Part shown: one piece after another, positions 30,601 to 61,034 of the stretch
Layout: every line of letters begins with the position of its first letter
Position numbering within the stretch: the first letter of the stretch is position 1
Assembly: GCA_027486935.1 (NCBI GenBank)
Contig: JAIXOF010000120.1
Span: forward strand, 32,001 to 96,000
Source: Cyanobium sp. C1_MAG_00004
GTDB lineage: Bacteria; Cyanobacteriota; Cyanobacteriia; PCC-6307; Cyanobiaceae
Direction of reading: 5' to 3'
DNA length: 64,000 nucleotides
The notes under the pieces: generated by a model
What the model was told of the DNA's origin: nothing
Seen by the model: the letters and a program-made list of their open reading frames with translations, nothing else
Databases searched by the model: none
Position numbers and translations under genes: made by a program

Positions 30601-32133
30601 ATGCGCCTGTTGCTGGTGGGCTGTCTGGCTCTGCCGCTGATCAGTTCCGGTTGCCGGGCTGAGCCCGCTTCCAGCCTGCAGTGGCCGGTGCCTGCCCCCC
30701 CTGCTGTGGGGGCCGGGCAGCCCCGGTTGTGGGTGGCCCTGGCCGCCCGGCTGGGTGCCGGAAGCAGCCCGATGCCCCTGCAGCTGCGCAGCGCCACCGG
30801 CCTGTTGACCCTGCGTGATGGAGCGGGTCAGCGCTGGCAGGCGCCGCAGTTCAGCCTGGGCTGGCAACGGGTTGCGCTCTCCCAGCCCCTGCAGATCCGG
30901 CGCCTGGTGGCCGGCCCTTACGCCAGCTTTGAGACCGCCGAGCGCCGGGCAGACCAGTGGCGCCAGCTCGGGGTGCCCGTGACCCTGGCCCAGCCCGCTG
31001 ACTGGGAGGTCTGGGCCCCGCCGGGATCCCCCGTGCCCAGCGGCTGGACGGTGCGCAGCCTCGAGCAGCGCCACACCACGGCGGTCGCGCCGGTCCTGCA
31101 GTTGCCGGGTCGCTCCCCGCAGCGCCTGGTCGCTCCCTTGGCGCTTGAGGCCCCCGGTGGGTTGCGCTGGCAGGGGGGGGTCTACGCCGGGCCGTTCCGG
31201 CTGCAGGGCGATGCCCATGGCAGCTGGAGCCTGCTGGAGCAGGTGCCCCTCGAGCGCTATCTGGAAGGGGTGCTTCCGCACGAAATCGGGTCTGGTTCGC
31301 CCCCTCAGGCCCTGGCGGCCCAGGCGGTGCTGGCCCGTACCTGGTCGCTGCGCAACCAGCACCGTTATGCCGCTGACGGCTATCACCTGTGTGTCACCAC
31401 GCAATGCCAGGTGTACAGCGACCCCCGTGCGGCGGGGGTGGCGGTGCGCGAGGCGATCGGTCGCACCCGGGGCCTGGTGCTGAGCTGGCAGGACCAACCG
31501 ATCCACGCGGTCTATCACGCCAGCAACGGTGGCCTGGCAGCCGGTCTGGAGGAAGCCTGGAATGCCGGTTCCCAGCCCTATCTGCGCCCGGCCCTCGACC
31601 GTGTCGATGGACCGGCTGAAAGGGCACCGTTGCCCCGGGTCTCTGAGCTGGCGCAGCTGTTGGGCAGGTCCGAGGGCTTTGTCGGCGCGGACCATCCGCT
31701 GTTTCGCTGGAGCCGCTGGCTTGATCGCCAGCAGATCGCCCAGGCCCTGGGCCGGCAGGGCCTGCAGGTGGGCCAGGTGCAACGGCTGGCGGTGCTCGAA
31801 CGGGGTCCCAGCGGCCGGGTCACAGCCCTGGCGATCGAAGGCAGCACCGGCCGCACGGTGCTGCGGATCGATGCCATTCGCCGCACCCTGCGCAGCCTGC
31901 CCAGCACCCTGTTCGTGCTGACCCCCCAGGGCCCTGGTCGCTGGTTGGTGCAGGGGGGCGGTTTTGGCCACGGGGTTGGCCTGTCCCAGGCCGGGGCCAT
32001 CGACCTGGGGCGCCGTGGCTGGTCCTTCAGCCGCATCCTTGAGCGCTACTACCCGGGCACCCGCCTGCAGCCCCTGGCACCATCGCCGCCACTGCCACCG
32101 CCACAGCTGCCAGGTCTTGGCGGCGACCCGTAA
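30601..32133 (+). CDS. SpoIID/LytB domain protein, exported
   Basis: 510 aa from ATG 30601. A short hydrophobic signal ends at LISSGC, so it is either a loose lipobox lipoprotein or an ordinary secreted protein. An N-terminal half with a SPOR-like segment (RRLVAGPYASFETAERRADQWRQLG) precedes the SpoIID domain: YLEGVLPHEIGSGSPPQAL, ALAAQAVLARTWSL, CVTTQCQVYSD, VYHASNGGLAAG, and near the end GGGFGHGVGLSQAGA. In other bacteria such domains bind or cleave peptidoglycan glycan strands or activate amidases. Likely an envelope remodelling protein. Confidence 0.87.
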   Translation: MRLLLVGCLALPLISSGCRAEPASSLQWPVPAPPAVGAGQPRLWVALAARLGAGSSPMPLQLRSATGLLTLRDGAGQRWQAPQFSLGWQRVALSQPLQIRRLVAGPYASFETAERRADQWRQLGVPVTLAQPADWEVWAPPGSPVPSGWTVRSLEQRHTTAVAPVLQLPGRSPQRLVAPLALEAPGGLRWQGGVYAGPFRLQGDAHGSWSLLEQVPLERYLEGVLPHEIGSGSPPQALAAQAVLARTWSLRNQHRYAADGYHLCVTTQCQVYSDPRAAGVAVREAIGRTRGLVLSWQDQPIHAVYHASNGGLAAGLEEAWNAGSQPYLRPALDRVDGPAERAPLPRVSELAQLLGRSEGFVGADHPLFRWSRWLDRQQIAQALGRQGLQVGQVQRLAVLERGPSGRVTALAIEGSTGRTVLRIDAIRRTLRSLPSTLFVLTPQGPGRWLVQGGGFGHGVGLSQAGAIDLGRRGWSFSRILERYYPGTRLQPLAPSPPLPPPQLPGLGGDP

Positions 32134-45925: not shown

Positions 45926-46012
45926 GCAGCGCTGGGTTGACCTGAGCATCGGCTGGTGAGTGGCGGGTTTCCGGTCACCGCGACCTCCCACGGGCTGCCC
46001 GAGAATGGCCCG

Positions 46013-48022
46013 ATGGTGAATCCCTACCAGCTGCAGGCCCCTTACGTTCCCAAGGGCGACCAGCCCCAGGCCATCAAGGGCCTGGTGGCGGGCGTCGAGG
46101 GGGGCGAGCGCTACCAGACCCTGCTGGGGGCCACCGGCACCGGCAAGACGTTCACGATCGCCAATGTGATCGCCCAGACCGGGCGTCCGGCGCTGGTGCT
46201 GGCCCACAACAAGACCCTGGCGGCCCAGCTGTGCAACGAGCTGCGGGAATTCTTCCCCAACAACGCTGTTGAGTACTTCATCAGCTATTACGACTACTAC
46301 CAGCCGGAGGCGTACGTGCCCGTCTCCGACACCTACATCGCCAAGACCGCGTCGATCAACGAAGAGATCGACATGCTGCGCCACTCGGCGACCCGTTCGC
46401 TGTTTGAACGGCGCGATGTGATCGTCGTCGCCTCGATCAGCTGCATCTACGGCCTCGGTATTCCGAGCGAATACCTCAAGGCTGCGGTCAAGTTTCAGGT
46501 GGGCGAGTCGCTCAACCTGCGCGCTTCATTGCGGGAACTCGTCAACAACCAGTACTCCCGCAATGACATCGAGATTGCGCGCGGGCGTTTTCGGGTGCGG
46601 GGCGATGTGCTCGAGATCGGCCCGGCCTACGAAGACCGGCTGGTGCGCATCGAGCTGTTTGGCGATGAGGTGGAGGCGATCCGTTATGTCGACCCCACCA
46701 CCGGCGAGATCCTGCAGAGCCTGGACACGATCAACATCTACCCGGCCAAGCACTTCGTCACCCCCAAGGAACGGTTGGCCGACGCGATCCAGGAGATCCG
46801 CACCGAATTGAAAGATCGCCTGGAGTTGCTCAACAGCCAGGGCCGCCTGCTCGAAGCCCAGCGCCTGGAGCAGCGCACCACCTACGACCTCGAGATGCTC
46901 GAGCAGGTGGGCTACTGCAACGGTGTCGAGAACTATGCCCGCCATCTGGCCGGCCGCGCCGCCGGCACCCCGCCCGAGTGCCTGATCGATTACTTCCCTG
47001 ACGATTGGCTGCTTGTCGTCGACGAATCGCACGTCACCTGCAGCCAGTTGCAGGCGATGTACAACGGCGACCAATCGCGCAAGCAGGTGCTGATCGAGCA
47101 CGGCTTTCGCCTGCCCAGTGCTGCCGACAACCGCCCCCTCAAGGGTGAGGAGTTCTGGGAGAAGGCGCGCCAGACGATCTTTGTCAGCGCCACCCCCGGC
47201 AACTGGGAGCTGGAGCAGAGCCACGGCCAGGTGGTGGAGCAGGTGATCCGCCCCACCGGTGTGCTCGATCCGATCGTCGAGGTCAGGCCCACCGATGGTC
47301 AGGTCGACGATCTGCTGGGCGAAATCCGCGTGCGGGCCGACAAGCAGGAGCGGGTGCTGGTGACGACGCTCACCAAGCGCATGGCCGAAGACCTGACCGA
47401 CTACCTGGCCGAGAACGGGGTGCGGGTGCGTTATCTGCACTCCGAGATTCACTCAATCGAGCGGATCGAGATCATTCAGGACCTGCGTAACGGTGCTTAT
47501 GACGTGCTGGTCGGCGTCAACCTGCTGCGCGAGGGCCTCGATCTGCCCGAGGTGTCCTTGGTGGCGATCCTCGATGCCGACAAGGAGGGCTTTTTGCGGG
47601 CCGAGCGCTCGTTGATCCAGACCATCGGCCGGGCTGCCCGCCACGTTGAGGGGGTGGCGTTGCTTTACGCCGACAACCTCACCGACAGCATGGCCAAGGC
47701 GATCCACGAGACCGAGCGACGCCGCGCGATTCAGCATGCCTACAACGTGGCCAACGGCATCACCCCCACTCCGGCGGGCAAACGGGCCGGCAACGCGATC
47801 CTGTCGTTTTTGGAGGTGTCGCGCCGTCTCAACGATGAGCAGTTGGAGGAAGCGGTCGAGCAGGCGGTGCACCACGACGTGCCCCTCGACGCCTTGCCCG
47901 AGCTGATTCAGCAACTCGAAGACAAGATGAAAGCGGCCGCCAAGAACCTGGAGTTCGAGGAGGCCGCCAACCTGCGCGACCGCATCAAGACCCTGCGCCA
48001 GCAGCTGGTGGGCAAGGCTTGA
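46013..48022 (+). CDS. uvrB: Excinuclease ABC subunit B
   Basis: 669-aa damage-verification helicase of nucleotide excision repair. ATG 46013 yields [20 protein letters not shown], the usual N-terminus. An upstream GTG at 45956 is less likely. Features are Walker A GATGTGKT (residues 39-46), the beta-hairpin [16 protein letters not shown] in [23 protein letters not shown] (motif VI), and the C-terminal UVR domain with [13 protein letters not shown] that contacts UvrC. No LexA box is visible upstream. It ends 9 bp from the convergent Nif11 gene. Confidence 0.97.
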
Positions 48023-48031
48023 ACCGCTGGT

Positions 48032-48352
48032 TCAGTCGCACTTGTACATGCAGGGGTCCAGGGTGCCTGCGGATTCCGGAATCGTCATGCGGTATCCGTG
48101 CCCGTAACAGGGGCAGCGTCCACTTTTCGTTTCGCTGCCGCGCTGCATTCCCCCGGCCGTCGTCTCCAGTTCCTGATCGCTGAGGGCCAGCCGCGGACGG
48201 ACCTGGCTCTGGTTGAGATCGGACTGGGTGATCAAAAACCCCGCCTCGCGGGCGATGGCCACCACGTCGGCACCGTTGGCCTGGAGCCTCTGTTTGAGGG
48301 TGTTGTCGGTTGCAAGCCTGGCCAGAAAGGCACGCAGTTGGTCCTCTGACAT
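48032..48352 (-). CDS. Nif11-leader peptide precursor with four-cysteine core (RiPP-like)
   Basis: 106-aa precursor from ATG 48352. The first about 65 residues are a Nif11-type leader (MSEDQLRAFLARLATDNTLK, KQRL.ANGADVVAIAREAGF) ending in a double-glycine site, TAGG at residues 65-68. The 38-residue core that follows is Gly/Tyr-rich and holds four cysteines, at 80, 82, 101 and 105 (CPC near its start, CMYKC at its end). Leader and GG site resemble prochlorosin/Nif11 precursors, but no LanM, cyclodehydratase or radical-SAM gene lies nearby, so disulfides or a remote enzyme are the options. Last gene of the PPIase-ABC-HlyD operon, 52 bp after hlyD. Confidence 0.85.
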   Translation of the reverse strand: MSEDQLRAFLARLATDNTLKQRLQANGADVVAIAREAGFLITQSDLNQSQVRPRLALSDQELETTAGGMQRGSETKSGRCPCYGHGYRMTIPESAGTLDPCMYKCD

Positions 48353-48404
48353 GGATTCAGAGCGGCTGATGCATAGCAACGCTAGGTCGAATCAGTTCAG
48401 CTGC

Positions 48405-49568
48405 TCATAGTTTGCGCAGCGATTCGCTCTTGTCGCGCATGCTGCTCAGCAGCAGCTGCAGGTAGGTGACCTTGCGCAGTTTGATGTTGGCGGTAAGGCT
48501 CATGCCGGCCTGCAGGGCCAGGCTCTGGCCGCTGCGCAGTTTGAGTTGCTGGTCGCTGAGGCTGATGGTGGCGGGGAAGCGGTAGGTGGTTTTCAGCTGG
48601 TCCGGGGGCAGGGCATCGGAGCCGACCTGGGTCACCGAACCGCGCAGCACGCCGAAGTCGCTGGCGGGGAACGAGTCGATGCTGATGTCGACCTGCTGAC
48701 CCTTGCGGATGAAGCCGATCTTGTCGCTGTTGATTTCGACCGCAGCCCGCAAGCGGTCAAAGGGCACCACCTGCATCACCGGTTCGCTGCCCTGGGCGAC
48801 GAAGCCAGCGCCGGTGGGCTTGAGGTTGAACACCACCCCGTTCACCGGTGAGCGCACGTCCTGGTAGCGAATCGCCATGTTGGATTCCGACATCCGGGCC
48901 CGCAGATCGGCCAGCCCGCTCTCCAGTTCCTGGATCTGCTGCTGCAGGATCGCGGTTTGACGGCGACGGTCCATGCGCAGGCGCTGCAGCTGACCCTCGG
49001 CCTCCTGCACCTTGTTGGCCTGTTGCAGGCTCTGCAGCTCGGCAACGGCTCCCTGTTGTTGCAGGTTGTCGAGCCGGCTCGAGATCGTGCGCTCCAGGCC
49101 CAGGTTCTTGCTGGTCGTCAGCTGTTCGCTGGCGTTGACATCCAGGTAGCGCTGCAGTTCCAGCTGTTTGAGCAGCAGTTGTTGTTGTTTGGCGACCAGT
49201 GATTTGCGCAGTTCCTGGTCCTTGCTGGACGCGGCTTCGTTGTCCAGCCGCAGCAGCACCTGCCCTTTGCTGACCTTTTCGCCTTCCTTGACCAGCATCT
49301 GCCGCAGCACGCCGCCCACCGGCATTTGGATGGTGTTGACCTCGCCGATCGGCTCGAGCTTGCCGGGGGCGACCACGACTTCTTCGGTTTGGGCGAGGGC
49401 CAGCCAGGCGACAGCCGCCCCGGTGGTCCCCAGCAGCACCCAGATGATCGTGCGCACCAGAAAGCGGGACTGCTGCAGCCCCATCTCGGCGGCGTTTGAG
49501 GCAACGCGGCGCTCGAGCGCGTTCTGGGCAGCGCGCACCAGCGCACCCGGTCGGACAGAAGGGGGCAT
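48405..49568 (-). CDS. HlyD-family membrane fusion protein of a type I secretion system
   Basis: 387-aa periplasmic adaptor linking the ABC exporter to an outer-membrane channel. Cytosolic start, one membrane helix (about residues 37-58), then the barrel/lipoyl segments EEVVVAPGKLEPIGEVNTI and GGVLRQMLVKEGEKVSKGQVLLRLD. A coiled-coil hairpin follows (about residues 115-220, Gln/Leu-rich), then DVRSPVNGVVFNLKPTGAGF. The ATG overlaps the ABC gene stop by one base. The partner outer-membrane protein (TolC-like) is not in the window. Confidence 0.92.
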   Translation of the reverse strand: MPPSVRPGALVRAAQNALERRVASNAAEMGLQQSRFLVRTIIWVLLGTTGAAVAWLALAQTEEVVVAPGKLEPIGEVNTIQMPVGGVLRQMLVKEGEKVSKGQVLLRLDNEAASSKDQELRKSLVAKQQQLLLKQLELQRYLDVNASEQLTTSKNLGLERTISSRLDNLQQQGAVAELQSLQQANKVQEAEGQLQRLRMDRRRQTAILQQQIQELESGLADLRARMSESNMAIRYQDVRSPVNGVVFNLKPTGAGFVAQGSEPVMQVVPFDRLRAAVEINSDKIGFIRKGQQVDISIDSFPASDFGVLRGSVTQVGSDALPPDQLKTTYRFPATISLSDQQLKLRSGQSLALQAGMSLTANIKLRKVTYLQLLLSSMRDKSESLRKL

Positions 49569-52528
49569 CAGCTGGACTCCTGCTGGCGGTAGAGGGCGTA
49601 GTAGCGCCCGCGCTGTTCGATCAGCGCATCGTGGGTGCCGACTTCGGCGACGGCACCCTCGTGCAACATCACGATGCGGTCGGCCCGGCGAATCGTGGAC
49701 AGCCGGTGGGTGATGAAGAACACCGTGCAGTGCTGCAGGTTGTCGAGCAGGTTGTCGCAGACCCGGCGCTCGGTGTCGTAGTCGAGGGCGCTGGTGGCTT
49801 CATCGAGCACCAGCAGGCGCGGCTTTGACAGCAGGGTGCGGGCCAGGGCCAGGCGCTGACGCTGGCCACCCGACAGGTTGGCGCCCCGTTCGCCCACGTT
49901 GGCGCTGTAGCCCCCGGGCAATTCCATGATGAAGTCATGGGCGCAGGCCAGCCGGGCTGCCTCGACAATCGCATCGCTGGTGGCATCCGGATCGGTCAGG
50001 GCGATGTTCTCGGCCACGGAGCCGGTGAACAGCAGCGGCTCCTGGGGCACGATGCCGATCTGGCGGCGCAGCGAATAGAGCTCCACCTTGTCGATGTCGT
50101 AGCCATCGACAAACACCCGCCCGCTGTTGGGGGCATAGAGCCGTGACAGCATTTTGGTGAGCGTGCTTTTGCCGCTGCCGCTCTGACCCACCACGCCCAC
50201 AAAGGTGCCAGCGGGGATGGTCAGGTCGATGTGGTTGAGGGTCAGGGCGCCGCCCTGCTGAAAGGAGAAACACACCTGGTCAAAGCGCACCTCGCCGGCG
50301 ATGGGGGGCAGAGGGATCTTGGCCTTGTCAGCGTCGTCCGATTCTTCAGGGGTGTCGACCACATCGGCCAGGCGCTCAAACGAGACCTTCAGTTCCTGGA
50401 TGTTCTGCCAGATCGAGGAGAGGCGCAGCAGCGGTTGGGTCACATAACCGGAGATGATGCGAAAGGCGATCAGTTGGCCCAGGCTCATCTCGCCCTTGAG
50501 CACCAACGTGGCGCCCACCCAGAGCACCAGCAGCTGCGACAGCTTCTGCAGCACCTGGGAGGTTTCGCTGATCGCGGTGCCGGTGATCGTTTTCTCGAAC
50601 GATCGGGCGATGTAGTTGCTGTAGAGGCTCTGCCACTTCCAGCGGCTGATCATCTCGACGTTCTGGGCCTTGACCGTCTGAATACCGGTCAGCACCTCCA
50701 CCAGATGGCTCTGGGTGCGGGCGTTCTCCTGGGCGGTGTCGCGGTACTGGCGCCGAAACAGCGGCGCCCCGATCACCGTCAGCCCCACCTGAATCGGCAA
50801 CACACACAGGGCGATCAGGGTGAGCAGCCAGCTGTAAAGCACCATCACGATGATGTAGATCACCGAAAAGGCGGTATCCAGCAGGGTCGTCAGCGCCTGG
50901 CCTGTCAAAAAATTGCGGATCTTCTCGAGCTCGGCGATGCGGGTGCCCAGTTCACCCACCGGGCGCCGGTCGAAGTAATTGAGCGGCAGGCGCAGCAGGT
51001 GGTCGATCACCTCGGCACCCAGGCGCATGTCGATGCGGTTGGTGGTTTCGGTGAACAAAAACGTGCGCAGGGCGCCGATCAGGCCTTCCAGCAGGGTGAC
51101 CACCACCAGGGCAATGCCCAGCACCTGCAGCGTGTCCAGGCTGCGCTGGCTGATCACCTTGTCGATGATCACCTGGATCAGCAGGGGGTTGGCCAGGCTG
51201 AACAGCTGCACCACAAACGAGGCCAGCAGCACCTGGCCCAGGATTCCCCGGTAGCGCTTGAGCGCCGGCCAGAACCAGTTGAAGCCAAAACGCTGCTCGG
51301 GGGTGCCGGTGCGCCGCTCCAACAGCAGAAACTCAATGCCCTCGGGGAACACCTCGGGCAGGTCGGCCGGCGGCACCACCACCAGGCCATCGCGGGGCGA
51401 GGCCACGTGCAACCCCTGGGCGTTGGCGGCGCGCACCAGCGCGTACCCCTGCTTCCAGGGAATCAGGGCGGGGGTCTGCAGCCGTGTGCCCTGGCTGGCG
51501 GGCACGCGCACACCGCTGACGTGCAGGCCCATCATCGCGGCGATGTTGCCGCACAGTTGCATGTCGGGGGCCTGGCCGCGCCGCAGGGCATCGCGCAGGA
51601 TCTTTTCGATCGCGTCGCGGCGAAAGGGGAGCTTCAGCTCGGCCGCCAGCATCTGGAAGCAGGCCAGGGTTTCCTCGAGGGGTCCCTCAGCGCGCTGGAG
51701 CCGGAAGGGCACCTGATCGCGCTGGCCAAGATCCAAACCAGAGGCGAGCGGCGGGCCACCCGAGGCCGGCACCAAGGCGGTGGCCGATGACGCTGCAACG
51801 GCGCCATCGTGCACCAGCTCGCTCTCCACAACGGCGGCGGGCTCTGCAATCGCGGCGTACCAATCGAGCGGCACCCCGATCAACCGGGGCGGCATCGGGG
51901 GATTGGCCTGGGGCACACCCGCCTGGGGATCGAGCCGGGCGGCGATCGGGTGGTGGGGCAGGTTGTGGCTGGCGGCCAGCAGCACCACATCCGGATGCAG
52001 TTGGGCCAGCCCATCAGCTGTGGGCTGAATCAACTGGGCCGCCGTTCGCACCCGCTCCATCTCATGGAGCGCACTGACCCTTTGATGGGGTTGGGCGGCC
52101 AGCACCTGCTCCACCAGCGCCAACAGTTCTGCTGTGAACAGATGGCCTGCACACCAGCTGGCAAAGGAGGGCTCAGTGCTGAGCAGCTCCAGCACCATTG
52201 CATCGGGGATCACCCAGGCCTGAAGCGGCCCGGCCGCACTCACCGACTCGCAGGCTTGGGTCCGCAACAGCGAGGCGAGGCCCACAAACGAGCCCGCAGC
52301 CAGCTTCTCGACCGTGCAGAGGCGGCCACCGTCGCGGCTGAGCAGACGGGCCTGCCCCTCAACCAGCAGCACCACCTCGCTGGGGATCAGATCGGCCTTG
52401 CTGAGCTCTTGGCCCGTGGTGAAGCTGCGCAGCTCAGATCGGGACTGGAGGGCCTGGCGGCCAGCCTCTGAGAGGGACGCAAAGGCGGGATGGTTGCTGA
52501 GCACCGCGTGGGGGGGAGCCTGGGTCAT
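49568..52528 (-). CDS. Type I secretion ABC exporter with cNMP-binding-like and degenerate C39-like N-terminal domains
   Basis: 986 aa from ATG 52528. Domains in order: a cyclic-nucleotide-binding-like fold (about 10-135), a variable linker, a C39 peptidase-like domain (about 285-395), an exporter transmembrane domain (about 425-705) and the ATPase with Walker A GQSGSGKST, signature LSGGQRQR and Walker B LLVLDEATS. In the C39-like part, the region that should hold the catalytic DCG reads EETLACF and the catalytic His position reads WKQGY, so it looks like a non-cleaving HlyB-type domain. The start overlaps the PpiC-like gene (ATGA) and the stop overlaps hlyD. Confidence 0.92.
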   Translation of the reverse strand: MTQAPPHAVLSNHPAFASLSEAGRQALQSRSELRSFTTGQELSKADLIPSEVVLLVEGQARLLSRDGGRLCTVEKLAAGSFVGLASLLRTQACESVSAAGPLQAWVIPDAMVLELLSTEPSFASWCAGHLFTAELLALVEQVLAAQPHQRVSALHEMERVRTAAQLIQPTADGLAQLHPDVVLLAASHNLPHHPIAARLDPQAGVPQANPPMPPRLIGVPLDWYAAIAEPAAVVESELVHDGAVAASSATALVPASGGPPLASGLDLGQRDQVPFRLQRAEGPLEETLACFQMLAAELKLPFRRDAIEKILRDALRRGQAPDMQLCGNIAAMMGLHVSGVRVPASQGTRLQTPALIPWKQGYALVRAANAQGLHVASPRDGLVVVPPADLPEVFPEGIEFLLLERRTGTPEQRFGFNWFWPALKRYRGILGQVLLASFVVQLFSLANPLLIQVIIDKVISQRSLDTLQVLGIALVVVTLLEGLIGALRTFLFTETTNRIDMRLGAEVIDHLLRLPLNYFDRRPVGELGTRIAELEKIRNFLTGQALTTLLDTAFSVIYIIVMVLYSWLLTLIALCVLPIQVGLTVIGAPLFRRQYRDTAQENARTQSHLVEVLTGIQTVKAQNVEMISRWKWQSLYSNYIARSFEKTITGTAISETSQVLQKLSQLLVLWVGATLVLKGEMSLGQLIAFRIISGYVTQPLLRLSSIWQNIQELKVSFERLADVVDTPEESDDADKAKIPLPPIAGEVRFDQVCFSFQQGGALTLNHIDLTIPAGTFVGVVGQSGSGKSTLTKMLSRLYAPNSGRVFVDGYDIDKVELYSLRRQIGIVPQEPLLFTGSVAENIALTDPDATSDAIVEAARLACAHDFIMELPGGYSANVGERGANLSGGQRQRLALARTLLSKPRLLVLDEATSALDYDTERRVCDNLLDNLQHCTVFFITHRLSTIRRADRIVMLHEGAVAEVGTHDALIEQRGRYYALYRQQESS

Positions 52529-53328
52529 TGGGGCTGAACGGCGACGGGGGCCAGCAGCTGGGGCCGCAGCTGCTCCAGACGGGCATCCACGGCCTGCTCG
52601 AGCCACTGCTCGAACAGTTCCTGACCCATCTGCAGGGCCATCGCCTCATCAAACGTGGCGGGGGTGAGGGATTCGAGCCGGCACAGGAGCCACCATTGCT
52701 CGATCCGGAAGGGTTCCTGAACCACGCCGATGGGTGCGGTGCGTAGCCGTTCCACCAACTGGGGATGGGCCTGGGTGAGGGACACCGGGCCCACGATGCC
52801 GCGGGTGGCCCGCTCTGGCCCCTCGGCGTACTGGGCTGCCAGATCGGCAAAGGTGGCTTCACCGTCTTGAAGCTGGAAATAGAGCTCCCGGGCCAGCCCC
52901 TCATCCTCGAGGCGCAGCAAGCTGTACACCACCCGATCGAGCTGCTGCTTGCGATCGAGAAAGCGGGCCTCGGCCTTGGGGCGATACAGCCGCTCACAGT
53001 GGCGGCGCAGGCGGATCGGGAGCTCTACCTGCAGCGCCAGGGCCTCGGGGGTGAGCAGGTTGGCGATGCGGAATCGCTCGATGGCCTCTGTGTTGGCCAG
53101 CCGGCGCTCCTGGGCAAAGGCCATCAGGGCCTGATGGCGCTCCTCGTCGCTGAGCTCCTCGCCCGTGATGGCCTGCGCCATCAGGCCCTGGCGCAGGTAG
53201 GCCCTGAGCAGGCCATGGTGAGCCAGCGACGCCAGCGACGCCAGCGACGCCAGGGGGAGAGCAGAACCGGGTTCACCCGTGGACAGGTTGGACAAACCAA
53301 GGGAACCAAGCTGGTCCATCTTGCCCAC
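52525..53328 (-). CDS. PpiC/SurA-like peptidyl-prolyl isomerase of the secretion operon
   Basis: 267 aa. No signal peptide, so a cytosolic chaperone for the exported substrate is likely. The N-terminal SurA-like helical region contains ITGEELSDEERHQALMAFAQERRL and RLRRHCERLYRPKAEARFLDRK. A parvulin-type domain lies at about 150-230 (YFQLQDGEATFADLAAQYAEGPERATRG and PIGVVQEPFRIEQWW). The first 40 residues contain the repeat SLASLASLA from a 9-bp DNA repeat, so the true start may lie further in. First gene of the operon. The 194 bp before it (53329-53522) show no gene or clear promoter. Confidence 0.82.
   Translation of the reverse strand: MGKMDQLGSLGLSNLSTGEPGSALPLASLASLASLAHHGLLRAYLRQGLMAQAITGEELSDEERHQALMAFAQERRLANTEAIERFRIANLLTPEALALQVELPIRLRRHCERLYRPKAEARFLDRKQQLDRVVYSLLRLEDEGLARELYFQLQDGEATFADLAAQYAEGPERATRGIVGPVSLTQAHPQLVERLRTAPIGVVQEPFRIEQWWLLCRLESLTPATFDEAMALQMGQELFEQWLEQAVDARLEQLRPQLLAPVAVQPQ
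53222..53253. repeat. 9-bp tandem repeat inside the PpiC-like gene
   Basis: GCCAGCGAC is repeated three and a half times without mismatch. On the coding (minus) strand it encodes Ser-Leu-Ala repeats near the N-terminus of the PpiC-like protein. Copy number may vary between strains. Confidence 0.85.
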
Positions 53329-53522: not shown

Positions 53523-54449
53523 TCACTCGCTTAGGGCAACGGCCCAGGTCAGATACTGCAGGGCAAAGACCGCATTGGGGTGGCAGGCCACCGGTGGCTG
53601 GGGCGGGGCCGGCACCGCCTTGAAGGGTGCGCCCGCTGCCGAGGTCTGGCGAAAGGCTTCGCGCACGATGCCCACCGGACAGGGCAACGCCTGCAGGTAG
53701 GCCTGCCGCACCAGGGCTGGCAGTTCGGCGATGCCTTCGCCGTCCTGCCACCACACCTGCAGGCCGGCGTCCTGCAACTGCTGCAGCCAGGCGCCGTTGG
53801 CGTCGGGTGACAGCTGGCCGGTGCTGTAAGCGCTGATGTGCAGGGGTTGGTCGAGGCGGGCGGCCAGCTGCTGCAGTTGGCTGCGGATTGCCGCGCGCCG
53901 CGGCGCCTCGGCGAACAACCGATCGGACAGCTCGGCCGGCAGGTACCAGCCGGCCACCGGCAGACCCAGCTGGCGCAGCCGGGGCTGCAAGCGCTGCTGC
54001 TGGGCCAGGGACTGGCGCTGCAGCCCTGCCCAGTAGTCGTTGAAGCGGTCCTTCCAGCCCGGTTGCAGCACCGTCTGGAAATAGGCCGGGTCGGCCGCCA
54101 GGCCGACCACCAGGGCCAGCCCCTGGCGATGGGCTTCGGCCAGGCTCGCCAGCAGCCAGTCGTCCTGCTCGAAGCGTTCGTCGCCGTAGGCGCTCCACTG
54201 CACGATCACCCGGTCAAAACCGCGGGCCCGGGCCTGCTGCCAGATCTGCTGCCACTGCTGCCGGTTGAGGCTGCGGTCGCGGTTGAGGGGCTGGTAAAAA
54301 ACGGTCCCGGCAGCGGCCGGCAGGGCCAGGCCCGCTGCCAGGCCGCTCGCCAGGCCCGCCCCCAGGGCAAGGCTGAGCACAAGCCGCCGCAGCAAGGGTC
54401 GCAGCAACGGTCGCAGCAACGGTGGGCGGGTCATCGAACGACCGGTCAT
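53523..54449 (-). CDS. DUF4434 protein (YbcH-like partner of NfrA/NfrB)
   Basis: 308 aa from ATG 54449, overlapping the nfrA-like stop by 4 bp (ATGA). ATG 54434 is an alternative. An N-terminal signal or anchor helix ends near LPAAAGTVFYQPL. The mature domain has TIM-barrel features of the DUF4434 glycosidase-like family: DRVIVQWSAYGDERF, LALVVGLAADPAYF, VAGWYLPAELSDRLF, ISAYSTGQLSPDANG and LQVWWQDGEG. In E. coli a DUF4434 gene, ybcH, also neighbours nfrA/nfrB. Likely a periplasmic polysaccharide-processing protein. Confidence 0.82.
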   Translation of the reverse strand: MTGRSMTRPPLLRPLLRPLLRRLVLSLALGAGLASGLAAGLALPAAAGTVFYQPLNRDRSLNRQQWQQIWQQARARGFDRVIVQWSAYGDERFEQDDWLLASLAEAHRQGLALVVGLAADPAYFQTVLQPGWKDRFNDYWAGLQRQSLAQQQRLQPRLRQLGLPVAGWYLPAELSDRLFAEAPRRAAIRSQLQQLAARLDQPLHISAYSTGQLSPDANGAWLQQLQDAGLQVWWQDGEGIAELPALVRQAYLQALPCPVGIVREAFRQTSAAGAPFKAVPAPPQPPVACHPNAVFALQYLTWAVALSE

Positions 54450-57010
54450 AAATCGGCCTGGAGGCTCAGCACCACGCCGGTGCTGTTGCTGTACAAGTTG
54501 CCGCCCAGCGACTGCTGCAGCTCGGCCCGGGCCGTCAGCTTGCGCATGTAGGCGCGCCGCAGGTCCTGGCCGAACCACAGCTGCCAGCGCAGGCCCAGGC
54601 CCACCCGCAGATCGGTCTGGGCGTTCTGCTGGGTGAACTGGCCCAGCAGATAGGGGCCCAGGGTCTGGGCCGATTGCCCCAGCCGCCAGGTGCGCCCCTG
54701 GCTGTAGCGCACCAGGCTCAGGGTCTGGGCCTGGTTGATGAACCAGGCCGCGTCGAAATACAGCGAGCGCTCGTTCCAGGCGCGGCGATCCTCCTTCCAT
54801 TCGGCGTTCCAGGGGCCCTGGTCCAGCAGCGAGCCGTTGACCCGCAGCAACAGGTCGGTGCTGCTGACCTGCCCCAGCTGGCCCTGGTAGGCCTCGGCGA
54901 ACAGGTTGGTGTTCAGCCCCCGGATCGGCGCCCAGCGCAGGCCAAGGCCGGCGGCGGTCTGGTTCTGGCCGTTGACGGCGTCGTTGGCGCTGATCACCCG
55001 GCCGTAGCCAAAGAGGTTGCCGGCCGCCAGCCGCGGTGTCAGCCGGTGCTCGTAGAGCACGGTGCCGACAAAGGTGTTGTTGGCATTGATCAGGGCCTCG
55101 TTGATCGTCTGGGCGACGCCGTCGGGCGCGGCGGTGACGTTGATCAGCCAGCTGTCGTTGCGGGCCAGGGCTTCGTAGGTGCGCTTGAGCCCGTAGATCC
55201 GCTGGCGCTGGGTGGGGCTCTGCAGCGGTTCGCTGGCGCTGGCCCCATCGCTCTCGAGGCTGATCGCCGCGGCCAGGTGCTGCAGGGCGGCCGGCCGGTT
55301 CTGTTGTTCGCGGTAGCGGTTGCCCAGTTCGGCTTCGATCGCCGCATTGCCCCCCAGCTGCCGGCTGGCCTCGAGCAGCACCGGCACCGCCTGATCGCGC
55401 ACGCTGCGGTCTGGGTCCTGGCTCAGGGTGAAGCCGTAATCGCTCAGGTAGCGGCCGTTGCCGGGGCTCAGGGCATTGGCGCGCTCAAGCCAGGCGCGGG
55501 CCTGCTGCCGCTGCCCCAGCTGCCGGGCGATCAGACCCGCCTGGTAAAAATCGGCACCATCGCGGCTGCTGGCCAGCACCGGCCGGTAGCGCTCGAGCGC
55601 CAGGGCCAGTTCGCCCCGGGCCTGGGCGATCAACCCGCCCAGCCGCCATTGCTCCAGGGTCGGCTCGAGGGTCGGCTGGCGCAGGGTCTGCCAGTGCTGC
55701 TCGGCCTGCTCCAGCCGGCCCAGCTCGAGGGCCACCTGGGCCATGGCCGCCTGCACGGTCGGTTGTTGCCGCTCGCTTGCGGGCAGGTCGCTCCAAAGGC
55801 GATAGGCGGCAGCGGGTTCGCCGGCGGCCGCCAGGGCAAAGGCCAGCAGGTTGCGGCTCTCGGCCAGCCCCAGGGCCTCGGCCTGCCGCAGGTAGACCAC
55901 CGCCTCGCCGGGACGGGTGGTGACGCTGCATTCGCCCCGGGCCAGCCACTCGCTGGCAGCGGTGGGGCCCGGATCGGCGGTCAGGGCGGGCAGTCGCGTG
56001 CACTGCCCCCGGTCCACCAGCTGGTCGTACAGGCGGCCCCGCAGTTGGGGGGTCAGCCGCGGCGCCAGGCGGGCCAGCTGGGCGCTGCTGGGGGGCCGCA
56101 CCTGGCCATACAGATTGACCAGCCGGCTGGCCAGCGGCTCGCCGATCGGCCCGTTGCCCGCGCCGAGTCGGCTTTCCAACAGCGTCAGGGCCTGGGCCGG
56201 CCGGCCGGCCACGATCAGCATGTAGCTGCGCTGATCCAGATCCGCGGCCGGGCTCAGGGGCGCTGCGGCTGGGGCCTGCTGCTGGGCGGCGATTGCGGTT
56301 GCAGGGCCCGGTTGCACCCGCGTTGCCCCGGCCAGGGTCTGGCGTGCCAGCTGCAGTCGCTTGGCCAGTAGCGGTGGCAGCGGCCCCCGGCGGGTCTGGG
56401 CCCCCAGCTCCCGCTGCACCGCCGTCCAGTCGCGGGCCAGTTCGGCCAGGCCGCTGCGGTATGTGATCGGTCCGCCGCGGCGTTGCAACCAGCGCCAGGC
56501 GGTCAGGGGCCCCTGCTGGCGGCGCAGCTGCTCGGCATGGCCCACGGCCAGCTGGTCCCGCTCCTGGCGGTTTGGGCTCTGCTGCAGCCAGCGCTCGACC
56601 CGGTTGCCGGGCACCGGCTGGCGCTGGTTGAGCCAGCTCAGCTGGATCTGCTGCTGCAATGGCGATGGGGGCAGGGGCGCCAGGGCATCCAGGGCGGCGC
56701 CATAGCGGCCCTGGCCCAGCAGGGCCTCGGCCAGCAGCTGCCGGGCCTCGCGCGAGTCCCGGTCGAGCTTGTTCAGGATGTGCCGGGCCTGCTGTTCGGC
56801 CTCGGCCGGCTTGCCCCGGCGCAGCGCTGCGTAGCCGCGGGCCAGATGGGGATAACTGCTGAAGCGGCGCCAGCTGCCCAGCAGGTCCGGTGCAGCCTGG
56901 GCCGGCAGGACGCTCAGGCCGGTCGGCCCAACCAGGCCCAGAACAGCCAGGCCCAGAGCAGCTAGCGACAGACCGGCCAGCGCCAGACGGGGCTGGGTCT
57001 TGCGGCCCAT
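54446..57010 (-). CDS. NfrA-like outer-membrane TPR protein (phage N4 adsorption protein A family)
   Basis: 854 aa. A signal peptide (hydrophobic to about residue 40, ending AQAAP) precedes a long array of TPR-like helices (about 55-640) and a beta-rich C-terminal region of about 200 residues (GYGRVISANDAVNGQNQTAAGLGLRW, LFAEAYQGQLGQVSSTDLLLRV, LGLRWQLWFGQDLRRAYMRK), consistent with an outer-membrane barrel. The layout matches E. coli NfrA, which exports the NfrB-made polysaccharide and serves as phage N4 receptor. ATG overlaps the nfrB-like stop by one base. Confidence 0.85.
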   Translation of the reverse strand: MGRKTQPRLALAGLSLAALGLAVLGLVGPTGLSVLPAQAAPDLLGSWRRFSSYPHLARGYAALRRGKPAEAEQQARHILNKLDRDSREARQLLAEALLGQGRYGAALDALAPLPPSPLQQQIQLSWLNQRQPVPGNRVERWLQQSPNRQERDQLAVGHAEQLRRQQGPLTAWRWLQRRGGPITYRSGLAELARDWTAVQRELGAQTRRGPLPPLLAKRLQLARQTLAGATRVQPGPATAIAAQQQAPAAAPLSPAADLDQRSYMLIVAGRPAQALTLLESRLGAGNGPIGEPLASRLVNLYGQVRPPSSAQLARLAPRLTPQLRGRLYDQLVDRGQCTRLPALTADPGPTAASEWLARGECSVTTRPGEAVVYLRQAEALGLAESRNLLAFALAAAGEPAAAYRLWSDLPASERQQPTVQAAMAQVALELGRLEQAEQHWQTLRQPTLEPTLEQWRLGGLIAQARGELALALERYRPVLASSRDGADFYQAGLIARQLGQRQQARAWLERANALSPGNGRYLSDYGFTLSQDPDRSVRDQAVPVLLEASRQLGGNAAIEAELGNRYREQQNRPAALQHLAAAISLESDGASASEPLQSPTQRQRIYGLKRTYEALARNDSWLINVTAAPDGVAQTINEALINANNTFVGTVLYEHRLTPRLAAGNLFGYGRVISANDAVNGQNQTAAGLGLRWAPIRGLNTNLFAEAYQGQLGQVSSTDLLLRVNGSLLDQGPWNAEWKEDRRAWNERSLYFDAAWFINQAQTLSLVRYSQGRTWRLGQSAQTLGPYLLGQFTQQNAQTDLRVGLGLRWQLWFGQDLRRAYMRKLTARAELQQSLGGNLYSNSTGVVLSLQADL

Positions 57011-59196
57011 CAGGCCAGCTCGAGGGCCGCCAGGCCCCGCGATCGCAGCCGGGCCTGCTCGGCCAGCAGCTGCTCGAGGTTGCTGGGGCTCAGCAGGCCC
57101 TGCTGCACCAGGTGCTCGCCCAGGCGCTGCCGTTCGGGTTCAAAGCTGATCAGGGCCTGGTTCAGCACCGATTGGTTGAGCAGGCCCAGATCCAGGGCCA
57201 GGTCCCCCAGCAGCACCAGCTGGCGGCAGACCTGTTCAAGCAGGTCGGGCCGGCTGGAGTGCAGGCCCGCCAGCCGGCGGATGCCCGCCGCCATCGGCGT
57301 CGGCTCATCCGGGCGGTACCAATGGCCCAGGCCGGCCTGGATGCGCCCCTGGGGCACCAGCACCTGGCGGCAGGGGCGGCCGATCTGACGGCTAATCACC
57401 CCTAGGGCCACGGCGCTGGCCGGGCTTTCGCGGCCCAGCACCAGGGTGTCGCCCTCGGTGCTCAGCGGCAGCACCGAGTACTTGTAGGCCAGGCGCTGGG
57501 GGAACCCGGCGACCTGGTGGGGATCCAGATCGAACGGGTCCAGATCCCGCCAATCCAGGTTCTGTTGCTCGGCCAGGGCAGCGGCCAATTGGCCGCTGCT
57601 GATGACCCCTTCGTCCAGCAGGGTGCGGCCAAGGCGACGGCGGCCGCTGCGCTGCAGGCCTGCCTCCAGCTGCTCCTGATTGAGAGCCCCCTGGGCGATC
57701 AGGATCTGCCCCAGGGGTTGGCTGCGGCGGGTTTCGGCGACGCTGGGGAACACATGGGTCGTCTTGTCCCAGGCCACCCGCCGCGCATCGCCCAGGGCCA
57801 TCACCTGGCGGTAGGCCCGCAGGTTGGCAAAGAAATTGATCCAGTTGCTCCAGACCATGCGGGGCACGGCCATCAGCGCCGCCACCAGCCCGTAGTAGCT
57901 GCCGGTGAAATAGACCCGCTGAACCATGCGGTTCAGGAGCAGCAGGCCGTTGTAGGCCAGCACCAGCTGCAGGTAGCGGCTGTCGCCCAGCACCGATGGA
58001 TAGTCCCAGCCGCTCCATTGCTCCTGGGTGATCAGCCAGACCAGCCCCAGCTGCACCGCCAGCAGCATCGAGATCAGGCCGATCAGGTTGCTGATGCCGC
58101 CACGGCGGTCGCGCCACAGAAAGTAATTGAGCAGCGGGCTTGAGCTCCAGGGCAGGGTGCGGGCCCCCTGAAACACGATGCCGGTGATCCAGCGCGACTT
58201 CTGACGCACCGCCGTGGCCAGGGTGTCGGGAAAGTTCTCGCGCACACAGATCACCTGGCTGTCGCGGCGGTTGACCCCGAACCGCCGCTCGCGCAGGGGC
58301 GCCAGGGCCGGATCGCGGGGGCTGAAGCGCACGAAGATCTCGGCCATGCCCACCTGCCGCAGGCGGATGCCGATGTCGTAATCCTCGGTCAGGCTCTGGG
58401 TCGAGAAGGCGATCCCTTCGCCTTCATCCAGCAGCCGCAGGATGGCCCGCCGGCTAAAGCAGGTTCCCACCCCGGCACTGGGCACCTGGCCCACCAGCGC
58501 CTCGCGCACGAGCACATCCTTGCCGTGCAGTTCGGCGAACTCGTCGGCGTAATGGTTGGCCGTGAAGTTCCACCAATGGCGGTGCAGAAACGGATACACC
58601 GGCACCTGGATCAGGTCCTTGCGGTCCACCAGCAGGTTGAACAGCCGCAGTTCCAGCGGTGAGATCACATCTTCGGCGTCGTGCAAGATGAAGCCGCTGA
58701 AGCTCACCGACGCCTCCCGCTCGAAGGCGAAGACGGCGGCGATGATGTTGTTCAGGCAGTCGGCCTTGCTGGTGGGGCCGGGCAGGGCGCAGACCACTTT
58801 GTGCACGTTGCTGAAGCGGCTGCAGGCTTCATCGACGTCCGCCTGGGTGTCGGGGTCGTTGGGGTAGGTGCCGACAAAGATCTGGTAGTTCTCGTAGTCG
58901 AGGCGGCTGGCGGCCAGACGGGCCATCTCACCCACCACGCCCACTTCGTTCCAGGCGGGCACCAGGATCGCCAGGGGCCGTTCGTGCTGCTGGTACAGCA
59001 GCTGCTCATCGGCAAAGCGGTGGCGGCTGTACACCGTCAGCCGCCGCCACAACCGCCGGGCCCAATAGAGCAGGTCGATCAGCAGGTCTTCGCTGCCCAG
59101 CACCGCCAGCACCGTGCCCACCGCGGCGGTGGCCAGCCTCAGGCCGAACAGATAACCGGTGGCCCAATCGATCAGCGTGTCGGGATCGATCGGCAT
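57010..59196 (-). CDS. NfrB-like GT2 glycosyltransferase with C-terminal MshEN (c-di-GMP) repeats
   Basis: 728 aa. An N-terminal membrane helix (about 14-34) precedes the GT2 catalytic domain: LAILVPAWNEVGVVG, the acidic HDAEDVISP (173-179), TEDYD (270-274) and QKSRW (332-336). Membrane helices follow (about 365-460). The C-terminus carries two pairs of MshEN-type motifs, starting PLGQILIAQG (494), RLGRTLLDEG (521), LGDLALDLG (663) and RLGEHLVQQG (691). MshEN domains bind c-di-GMP, so polymerisation is likely c-di-GMP-gated, as proposed for E. coli NfrB. Starts 11 bp after lysC. Confidence 0.88.
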   Translation of the reverse strand: MPIDPDTLIDWATGYLFGLRLATAAVGTVLAVLGSEDLLIDLLYWARRLWRRLTVYSRHRFADEQLLYQQHERPLAILVPAWNEVGVVGEMARLAASRLDYENYQIFVGTYPNDPDTQADVDEACSRFSNVHKVVCALPGPTSKADCLNNIIAAVFAFEREASVSFSGFILHDAEDVISPLELRLFNLLVDRKDLIQVPVYPFLHRHWWNFTANHYADEFAELHGKDVLVREALVGQVPSAGVGTCFSRRAILRLLDEGEGIAFSTQSLTEDYDIGIRLRQVGMAEIFVRFSPRDPALAPLRERRFGVNRRDSQVICVRENFPDTLATAVRQKSRWITGIVFQGARTLPWSSSPLLNYFLWRDRRGGISNLIGLISMLLAVQLGLVWLITQEQWSGWDYPSVLGDSRYLQLVLAYNGLLLLNRMVQRVYFTGSYYGLVAALMAVPRMVWSNWINFFANLRAYRQVMALGDARRVAWDKTTHVFPSVAETRRSQPLGQILIAQGALNQEQLEAGLQRSGRRRLGRTLLDEGVISSGQLAAALAEQQNLDWRDLDPFDLDPHQVAGFPQRLAYKYSVLPLSTEGDTLVLGRESPASAVALGVISRQIGRPCRQVLVPQGRIQAGLGHWYRPDEPTPMAAGIRRLAGLHSSRPDLLEQVCRQLVLLGDLALDLGLLNQSVLNQALISFEPERQRLGEHLVQQGLLSPSNLEQLLAEQARLRSRGLAALELA

Positions 59197-59207: not shown

Positions 59208-61034
59208 TCAGACCGGCGCTTCCGTGCCCTCGGCCCGATGGATGGCTGCGCCGCCGAGGTTAAAGGCGTCATGCACCACCTGCAACGCCCGCACGCCGTC
59301 GGCTTCGGCAACCACGCAGCTGGTGCGGATCTCGCTGGTGGCGATCAGTTCGATGTTGATGGCGGCGTCAGCCAGGGCCCTGAACATGCGGGCCGCGGTG
59401 CCGGCTGTGCAAGGCATGCCGGCACCGACGGCGCTGACCCGGGCGATGGCGGGCCCCTCCTCGAAGCGCGAGCCGGGCCATTGCAGCAGCAGCGGTTGCA
59501 GCGCCTGGTGGGCCCGTTGCAGCTCATCCCGCTTGAGGGTGAAACTCATGTCCTTGGTGTCCTCGTGGGTGCGCTCGGACTGCACGATCGCGTCCAGGCT
59601 CAGGCCCGCATCGGCCAGCGTCCGGCAGACGGCGGCGGCGGTGCCGGGCCGGTCCGGCACCCGGCGCACCGCCACCTGGGCCTGGCCCAGGTCCAGGGCC
59701 ACCCCGCGCACGGGCGGGTCCCCCAGGTCACAGGCCTGGGGGTTGTGCTGCAGCTGGCCGTCCTGCAGTTCGAACGCTTCTGCGGCGGCCCGCAGGGCAC
59801 GGGCGCCCTGCTGACCGCTGACCAGGCAGCTGACCTTGACTTCGCTGGTGGCGATCAGTCGCAGGTTGATGCCGGCCCGGGCCAGGGTGTCGAACAGGCG
59901 GGCCGCCACCCCGGGGCGCCCCATGATGCCGGCCCCCGAAATGCTGAGCTTGGCCATGCCGGCCTCGCTGCTCAGCCGGGCCCCTGCGCTATCGGCGCTG
60001 CTGGCCAGTTCGGCCCCCAGGCCCAGTAGCACCTCGCGGCAGATCAGTTCTGCCCTGTCGAGTTCGGCCGCGGCCAGGGTGAAGGCGATGTCATTGCTGG
60101 CCCCTTCATGGGTGGCCTGCACGATCAGGTCGACGTTGAGGCCGGCGGCCCCCAGGGCTTCGAACAGGGTCGCCGCCACCCCCGGGCGGTCGGGCACGTG
60201 GGACAGCGAGAGCACGGCCTGGTCGGCATCGAGCTCAGCGCCATCCACCGGTTTGCCCAGTTCGAGCCCGCCGTGGCCGATCGGGCGGGGTGCGCCGCTG
60301 GTCAGGCGGGTGCCGGGGGCGTCGCTCCAGCTCGAGCGCACGATCAGCGGCACGCCGTAGTTGCGGGCGATCTCGACCGCCCGTGGATGCAGCACCGCCG
60401 CCCCCAGGCTGGCCAGCTCGAGCATTTCGTCGCAGCTGACCTGGTCCATCAACTGGGCATCAGCCACCTTGCGCGGATCGGTGGTCAGTACCCCGGGCAC
60501 ATCGGTGTAGATCTCGCAGGCCGCGGCCCCGAGGGCTGCAGCCAGGGCCACCGCCGAGGTGTCCGAACCGCCCCGCCCAAGGGTGGTGATTTCGGGCGTG
60601 CCGGCGGCGCCGCCGCTGGTGCCCTGAAACCCGGCCACCACCACCACCTGGCCGGCATCCAGCAGGCGTCTGAGCCGCTCGCTGCGCACCTCGAGGATGC
60701 GGGCACGGCCGTGGGCCGATTCGGTGATGATTCCGGCCTGGGTGCCCGTCATCGACACCGCCGGCACCCCCTGGGCGTGCAGGGCCATCGACAGCAGGGC
60801 GATCGAGACCTGCTCGCCGGTGGCCAGCAGCATGTCCATCTCCCGCTGGGGCGGGTCGCTGCTGATGGCGCGGGCCAGGCCGGTCAGCTCGTCGGTGGTG
60901 TGGCCCATGGCCGAGACCACCACCACGATGTCGTGGCCGTCCTCACGGCAGGCCGCGATCCTGGCGGCCACCGCCTGGATGCGTTCGACGTCGGCCACCG
61001 AAGTGCCCCCGAATTTCTGAACCAGCAGGGCCAT
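59208..61034 (-). CDS. lysC: Aspartate kinase with tandem ACT domains
   Basis: 608-aa kinase forming aspartyl phosphate for lysine/DAP, threonine and methionine. The catalytic domain starts [16 protein letters not shown], with [16 protein letters not shown] and [15 protein letters not shown] following. The regulatory half is duplicated: two ACT-domain pairs with paired motifs such as [19 protein letters not shown] and [16 protein letters not shown], and [19 protein letters not shown] and [19 protein letters not shown]. This long form is usual in cyanobacteria and signals feedback control. holA precedes it by 36 bp. Confidence 0.95.

Follow-up and report, generated by a model that had tools for sequence, protein, structure and literature searches.

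Introduction

Among the known systems closest to the locus reported here is the NfrB-NfrA-YbcH system of Escherichia coli, known as the N4 glycan receptor (NGR). An unlinked cyclase of the dCache type, DgcJ, serves this system (PMC8669472), and the E. coli literature treats YbcH as a putative scaffold, a hydrolase not being mentioned. A survey of NfrB homologues made in 2021 reported them in Proteobacteria and in rare Gram-positives, cyanobacteria being absent from its main text (PMC8669469). A phylum-wide survey of cyanobacterial exopolysaccharide pathways found no BcsC_C domain and no confident counterpart of AlgK, AlgE or BcsC (PMC4594306). No paper on cyanobacterial NfrB came up in a text search that left most subscription journals outside its reach; the sole co-mention was of NfrB as a metagenome orthology group. 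Here we analyzed a stretch of 64,000 nucleotides (the window; positions 32,001 to 96,000 of contig JAIXOF010000120.1) from Cyanobium sp. C1_MAG_00004, a freshwater-type picocyanobacterium of Cyanobium type whose assembly of 2.98 Mb is 99.8% complete. Positions 53523-59196 of the window are occupied, on the minus strand, by an nfrB-nfrA-DUF4434 gene set with the order of E. coli nfrB-nfrA-ybcH. We hold with good confidence that these genes form a complete, laterally acquired Nfr exopolysaccharide system, in which synthesis gated by cyclic di-GMP (c-di-GMP), export through NfrA and trimming by the DUF4434 protein would follow one another, a mechanism drawn from homology.

The nfrB-nfrA-DUF4434 gene set

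The first gene, nfrB (57010-59196, minus strand), encodes a protein of 728 aa assigned by the profile NF008411 and by identity to E. coli as an inner-membrane processive GT2 synthase with a C-terminal MshEN c-di-GMP domain. It is followed by nfrA (54446-57010, minus strand; 854 aa), assigned by PF13283 (NfrA_C) and NF007302 as an outer-membrane export protein, and by a ybcH-like gene (53523-54449, minus strand; 308 aa; PF14488) for a DUF4434 protein with an N-terminal membrane or signal helix and a predicted TIM barrel, a candidate glycoside hydrolase. The overlap is 1 base between nfrB and nfrA (TGATG) and 4 bases between nfrA and the DUF4434 gene (ATGA). The start of the latter was taken as the ATG overlapping the nfrA stop, which gives the 308 aa; the mechanically listed open reading frame (ORF) begins further upstream. 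The initial annotation of the window had claimed three such ORFs, and their coordinates and lengths match, with family scores far above chance. It had also proposed a synthase-dependent exopolysaccharide module, on which profiles, gene order, residues and predicted architecture agree. Its term "enterobacterial" was too narrow, as the closest proteobacterial copies found are those of Pseudomonas and Thalassospira. A cellulose or poly-N-acetylglucosamine (PNAG) system was also considered and rejected, the best models throughout being NfrB, NfrA and DUF4434.

NfrB and its c-di-GMP domain

In profile searches, NF008411 spanned residues 13-718 of the 728 with a score of 1034 bits; other cyanobacterial copies scored 987-1033, P. 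resinovorans 1227 and E. coli 1333. As the NCBI equivalog cut-off for this model is 1170 bits, the window protein is termed here an NfrB homologue of an Nfr system and is not named an equivalog. BLAST aligned it to NfrB of E. coli K-12 with 51% identity over 719 aa. Within the GT2 catalytic domain (58033-58974, minus strand; residues ~75-388; PF13641/PF13632), residue alignment showed that the signatures D173, T270-E271-D272 and Q332xxR335-W336 are kept, corresponding to D169, TED265-267 and QxxRW326-330 of E. coli. The MshEN domain (57304-57717, minus strand) was identified by PF05157 (40.6 bits, cut-off 23.1), NF053729 and residue alignment, and matches the solved c-di-GMP-binding N-domains of MshE and PilB. 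The c-di-GMP-contact residues that were examined, L495, G496, L510, L514, L522, G523 and L541, are all kept and align with E. coli L490, G491, L505, L509, L518, G519 and L537. In E. coli NfrB, mutation of several of these GT2 and MshEN residues lowered or abolished function (PMC8669469, PMC8669472). The initial annotation had named loss of the c-di-GMP-binding residues as evidence that would speak against its reading; in the alignment to E. coli, the examined contact residues and all of the GT2 residues are retained.

A second C-terminal pair of MshEN-like half-motifs (57049-57210, minus strand; residues ~663-716) was recognized by NF053729 and could be a second nucleotide site. This model found two stretches in NfrB of the window, of another carrier (G047, locus L014) and of Clear-D1 (locus L017), and one in NfrB of E. 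coli and P. resinovorans at 1e-5. Apart from the operon, a weak MshEN match (21.8 bits, below the cut-off) lies at positions 1283-1507 of the window; the open frame that contains it, of 646 aa, may encode an ATPase for a pilus or for secretion.

NfrA and its predicted barrel

NfrA_C matched residues 681-838 of the 854-aa protein with 84.1 bits (cut-off 25), and the phage receptor model NF007302 gave 315 bits, below that model's cut-off. BLAST against NfrA of E. coli K-12 gave 25% identity over 344 aa (E 8e-18). The AlphaFold2 model (mean local confidence score, pLDDT, 85.4) starts with an N-terminal helix of signal-peptide type, continues with a periplasmic solenoid of tetratricopeptide repeats (TPRs; 55163-56893, minus strand; residues 40-616), also indicated by TPR profiles and Foldseek, and ends with a predicted 12-strand C-terminal beta-barrel (54452-55156, minus strand; residues 619-853) assigned by DSSP and containing the NfrA_C match. 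A Foldseek search with the full model returned TPR proteins only and no match for the barrel, the solenoids dominating the search; the assignment of a predicted outer-membrane pore consequently rests on the strands and the NfrA_C family. The 854-aa protein, whose lack of relation to NfrA would by the initial annotation's own standard have spoken against its reading, is related to NfrA by profile, position and predicted architecture (signal helix, TPRs and C-terminal barrel).

The DUF4434 protein as a candidate glycan hydrolase

The product of the third gene matched PF14488 with 66.7 bits (cut-off 30) and showed 33% identity to E. coli YbcH over 279 aa (BLAST, E 7e-33). Its model (pLDDT 88.6) is a TIM barrel behind an N-terminal helix, with one glutamate, E173, at the end of strand 4 (165-175) and another, E264, closing strand 7 (260-264). 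Both glutamates are invariant in 22 DUF4434 homologues and are kept in E. coli, Zymomonas and Pseudoalteromonas. In clan GH-A glycosidases, strands 4 and 7 carry the acid/base and nucleophile glutamates at their C-terminal ends. The matches to known folds were weak and mixed, a putative fucosidase being at the top and O-GlcNAcases, a beta-amylase and a xylanase being among the others. No sequence match to solved glycosidases was found, and a profile search of the PDB gave chance Rab matches only. The predicted TIM barrel and the invariant glutamate pair suggest that the DUF4434 protein may be a periplasmic glycan hydrolase. BcsZ, PgaB and AlgL are the periplasmic glycan-cleaving enzymes of the Bcs, Pga and Alg systems, and by analogy with these synthase-dependent systems we propose that the DUF4434 protein may trim the glycan.

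Source of c-di-GMP and sugar donor

The window genome carries four GGDEF genes, at least two of which have degenerate sites as judged by eye, and GGDEF genes are not specific to nfr carriers. None of the four GGDEF proteins is recognizable as a dCache (DgcJ-type) cyclase; a cyclase feeding NfrB may exist. In Vulcanococcus Clear-D1, a dCache_1-GGDEF gene (L017:4401-5885) is divergent from nfrB. A homologue stands beside nfrB in the closed chromosome G134 (L013:12749-14284), with an in-frame TAG between its sensor and GGDEF parts. A GGDEF gene was also present in 58 of 76 Pseudomonas/Thalassospira nfr loci, nearly always directly after the DUF4434 gene; in the one locus inspected (L022), its product has an N-terminal membrane-type region and not dCache.

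One UDP-N-acetylglucosamine (UDP-GlcNAc) 2-epimerase gene (WecB-type, Epimerase_2) is present in the window genome. Since Epimerase_2-type genes occur in 149 of 201 Cyanobiaceae genomes, the epimerase shows just that UDP-N-acetylmannosamine (UDP-ManNAc) can probably be made. The machinery might be functional with a polymer that is not based on ManNAc, the GT2 domain using another donor such as UDP-GlcNAc or UDP-glucose and making a glycan unlike that of E. coli. This is conceivable in that wecB is unlinked in cyanobacteria, unlike in Zymomonas and Thalassospira, where it is a neighbour of nfrB, and in the more distant loci of Paraburkholderia, Nitratireductor and Variovorax, where it is located upstream, and in that the conserved motifs do not reveal donor specificity. 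However, all three nfr-positive genomes of the 201 have an epimerase, fitting the rule that nfrB without a linked wecB occurs only in cells with a wecB at another place in the genome (PMC8669469), and the 51% identity to E. coli NfrB extends across the whole synthase. We thus regard a different donor as unlikely and retain a ManNAc-based glycan as the preferred reading.

Distribution and origin of the operon

NfrA_C was present in 6 of 400 Cyanobiaceae genomes, belonging to 4 of 59 genera. Across a phylum sample of 386 genomes, the NfrA_C cut-off was passed by no genome other than that of the window; a marginal match in G293 (20 bits, below the cut-off, in a 141-aa frame) was left out of this count. 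A scan of a genome collection gave Synechococcaceae WB9_2_112, Cyanobium LE-02apr19, Vulcanococcus Clear-D1 and Cyanobium M55B138 as further carriers, some of them being the same assemblies as those with G labels here. The next best matches after the cyanobacterial carriers came from Pseudomonas (up to 59%) and Thalassospira (56%). Contamination as the source of the operon is very unlikely and was rejected because the operon recurs in independent Cyanobiaceae assemblies, including the closed chromosomes G134 and G557.

In a tree of 21 proteins, the seven cyanobacterial NfrB formed one clade (support 100/100) that grouped with Pseudomonas, Thalassospira and Zymomonas (97/97 to 99/97), E. coli and Pseudoalteromonas standing apart. 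The survey of cyanobacteria and the tree with proteobacterial copies, both foreseen in the initial annotation, showed that the operon is rare and supported common descent of NfrB, respectively. Because the cyanobacterial proteins form one clade beside the Pseudomonas/Thalassospira set, the simplest reading of the sequences is that the operon entered Cyanobiaceae in a single transfer from a donor of proteobacterial type and was then spread and lost. The tree was midpoint-rooted and its proteobacterial sample, partly chosen by similarity to the query, is plasmid-heavy, so that donor and direction are deduced chiefly from how rare the operon is among cyanobacteria.

A more divergent nfr operon is present in G557 (L130:6159-11708), with 64% (NfrB), 47% (NfrA) and 48% (DUF4434) identity to the window; its NfrB falls inside the cyanobacterial clade. 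More distant NfrB-like proteins are encoded in the plasmid loci L098, L099 and L101 (Paraburkholderia, Nitratireductor and Variovorax), which have a different Nfr-type architecture with wecB and BcsB-like or "cellulose synthase" genes upstream.

Gain and loss at the uvrB-lysC site

The operon is flanked on the left by lysC, encoding aspartate kinase (59208-61034, minus strand), and the right flank of the insertion site is uvrB (45956-48022, plus strand). In G144, of the same genus, and in G030, uvrB stands directly next to lysC, a gap of ~50-60 bases separating the two. In the window they are separated by 11.2 kb made up of the nfr operon and a type I secretion cassette. In G047, the operon and the same type I cassette (HlyD, ABC, PpiC) are both beside lysC in the opposite order. 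In G107, also of the same genus, a stump of ~45 nfrB codons next to uvrB runs in frame into a different coding sequence (L129:987-1529); this looks like loss of the operon by deletion, although G107 is a draft assembly and an assembly error is the alternative. A PI-PLC gene, as found in locus L015, was considered as the source of the fused sequence, and the search gave no support for it. The operon lies at other sites in G134 and Clear-D1. Combined, the empty sites, the order in G047, the stump in G107 and the other locations indicate that the nfr operon is mobile and subject to loss over short periods, and that uvrB-lysC is an insertion hotspot with gain and loss of nfr.

The co-inserted type I secretion cassette of the window (48032-53328, minus strand), identified with Pfam and NCBIfam, encodes a Nif11-domain leader peptide with a GG motif and a Cys-rich core, HlyD, an HlyB-type ABC protein of 1012 aa with a cNMP-binding domain, and a PpiC-like protein. 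This cassette and nfr share the uvrB-lysC site in two species. The neighbourhood differs again in Cyanobium M55B138, where a short ORF resembling a PIN-domain toxin lies upstream of nfrB (L018:1060-1455).

Selection and the cyanophage hypothesis

The ratio of nonsynonymous to synonymous substitutions (dN/dS), estimated by simple counting between pairs of cyanobacterial copies, was 0.17 and 0.21 for nfrB, 0.15-0.32 for nfrA and 0.10-0.24 for the DUF4434 gene. Since some of the synonymous distances approach saturation, the values at higher divergence are rough. With ratios of 0.10-0.32, all three genes are maintained by purifying selection. These values bear on the proposal that the operon is a recent passenger heading to decay, without a selected function in this lineage. 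The patchy distribution (6 of 400 family genomes), the G107 stump of ~45 codons and the in-frame stop in the linked cyclase gene of G134 speak for such a passenger. However, in addition to the low ratios, the three genes are intact in the window, and the seven cyanobacterial copies form one clade of considerable depth, which argues that they have long been kept. We consider decay without function very improbable and maintain that the operon is kept by selection.

The initial annotation had also suggested that the glycan might affect cyanophage adsorption. Presence and absence among relatives is a pattern possible under phage pressure, and in E. coli phage N4 attaches first to the glycan and next to NfrA (PMC8669469, PMC8669472), the latter being recognized by gp65 (PMC12892993). 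A search of 50,697 phage records with N4 gp65 gave matches in phages of Escherichia, Achromobacter, Pseudomonas, Delftia, Acinetobacter and a few others, and no cyanophage among them. N4 gp66 gave one weak match, in a Synechococcus phage (26%, residues 46-216). Although cyanophages could use proteins unrelated to gp65, the suggestion gained no support, and a role of Nfr as a cyanophage receptor appears rather improbable. Roles in attachment or grazing are speculation.

Proposed mechanism

In the reading that we prefer, c-di-GMP would bind the MshEN domain of NfrB, as its retained residues suggest, and switch on the membrane GT2 domain. The latter would polymerize a nucleotide sugar, probably the UDP-ManNAc made by the single WecB-type epimerase if the substrate is that of E. 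coli, and the chain would cross the inner membrane through NfrB. It would then pass the periplasm along the TPR solenoid of NfrA and exit via the C-terminal barrel, a route that follows from the predicted architecture. The DUF4434 protein, whose N-terminal helix presumably keeps it in the inner membrane or close to it, would most likely trim the chain or cleave it when stalled. The operon lies directly behind lysC in the hotspot and may be transcribed from the lysC side; the lysC stop and the nfrB ATG are 11 bases apart on the same strand, which makes read-through likely.

Several points weigh against this reading. Firstly, NfrB is under the NCBI equivalog cut-off (1034 against 1170 bits), NfrA is ~135 aa shorter than in E. 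coli with a good BLAST alignment confined to the C-terminal half, and the fold matches of the DUF4434 protein are only at TIM-barrel level (TM-score ~0.5), some being to non-glycosidases. Secondly, no diguanylate cyclase is linked to nfr in the window genome, wecB is unlinked to the operon with epimerases of its family common in Cyanobiaceae, and the donor sugar of the GT2 domain is not readable from sequence.

We give even credence to a broader proposal. In this view, no complete export chain for a synthase-dependent exopolysaccharide gated by c-di-GMP had been recognized in cyanobacteria before this one. The operon would have come once from a source of proteobacterial type, selection would have preserved it in a few picocyanobacteria, some of which have a dCache sensor cyclase next to it, and it would have been gained and lost at the uvrB-lysC hotspot. 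The DUF4434 protein would represent a periplasmic glycan hydrolase of a type new for Nfr systems generally. A complete and selected Nfr operon would fill the missing outer-membrane half of synthase-dependent export in picocyanobacteria and would provide c-di-GMP with a defined target at the surface of these cells. Pairs with and without the operon inside one genus allow tests of the role of the glycan, and the conserved glutamate pair makes the unsolved role of YbcH directly testable.

Comparison with known systems

The window operon shares with E. coli NfrB-NfrA-YbcH the gene order, the tight or overlapping genes and all key residues, as well as a GT2 and MshEN synthase, a TPR exporter with a C-terminal barrel and a DUF4434 third protein. 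It differs in its sequence (51/25/33% identity for NfrB, NfrA and YbcH, respectively), in a shorter NfrA, in a stronger second C-terminal MshEN-like pair in NfrB, in a genome without a DgcJ-type (dCache) cyclase and in its position behind lysC in a hotspot. The Pseudomonas and Thalassospira loci are the closest found outside cyanobacteria, with the same order and 55-59% (NfrB) and ~43-55% (DUF4434) identity, but in 58 of 76 cases have a GGDEF gene, nearly always after DUF4434, whereas two cyanobacterial relatives have a dCache-GGDEF gene beside nfrB instead.

The Bcs cellulose, Pga PNAG and Alg alginate systems (PMC4594306, PMC5933820) likewise combine a c-di-GMP-gated GT2 synthase, a TPR and barrel exporter and a periplasmic cleaving enzyme. 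In contrast to these, Nfr has MshEN instead of PilZ or PgaD control, an NfrA_C instead of a BcsC_C barrel, and DUF4434 in place of the known hydrolases. The Wzy-dependent, ABC-dependent and partial synthase-dependent pathways of cyanobacteria also yield surface or released polysaccharide, whereas the window has a dedicated synthase-linked exporter. Nfr is therefore a known kind of system, here in a new phylum, to which the present analysis adds a probable single acquisition, gain and loss at a hotspot, a sensor cyclase gene next to nfrB in two relatives and, for the third gene, an enzyme hypothesis that can be tested.

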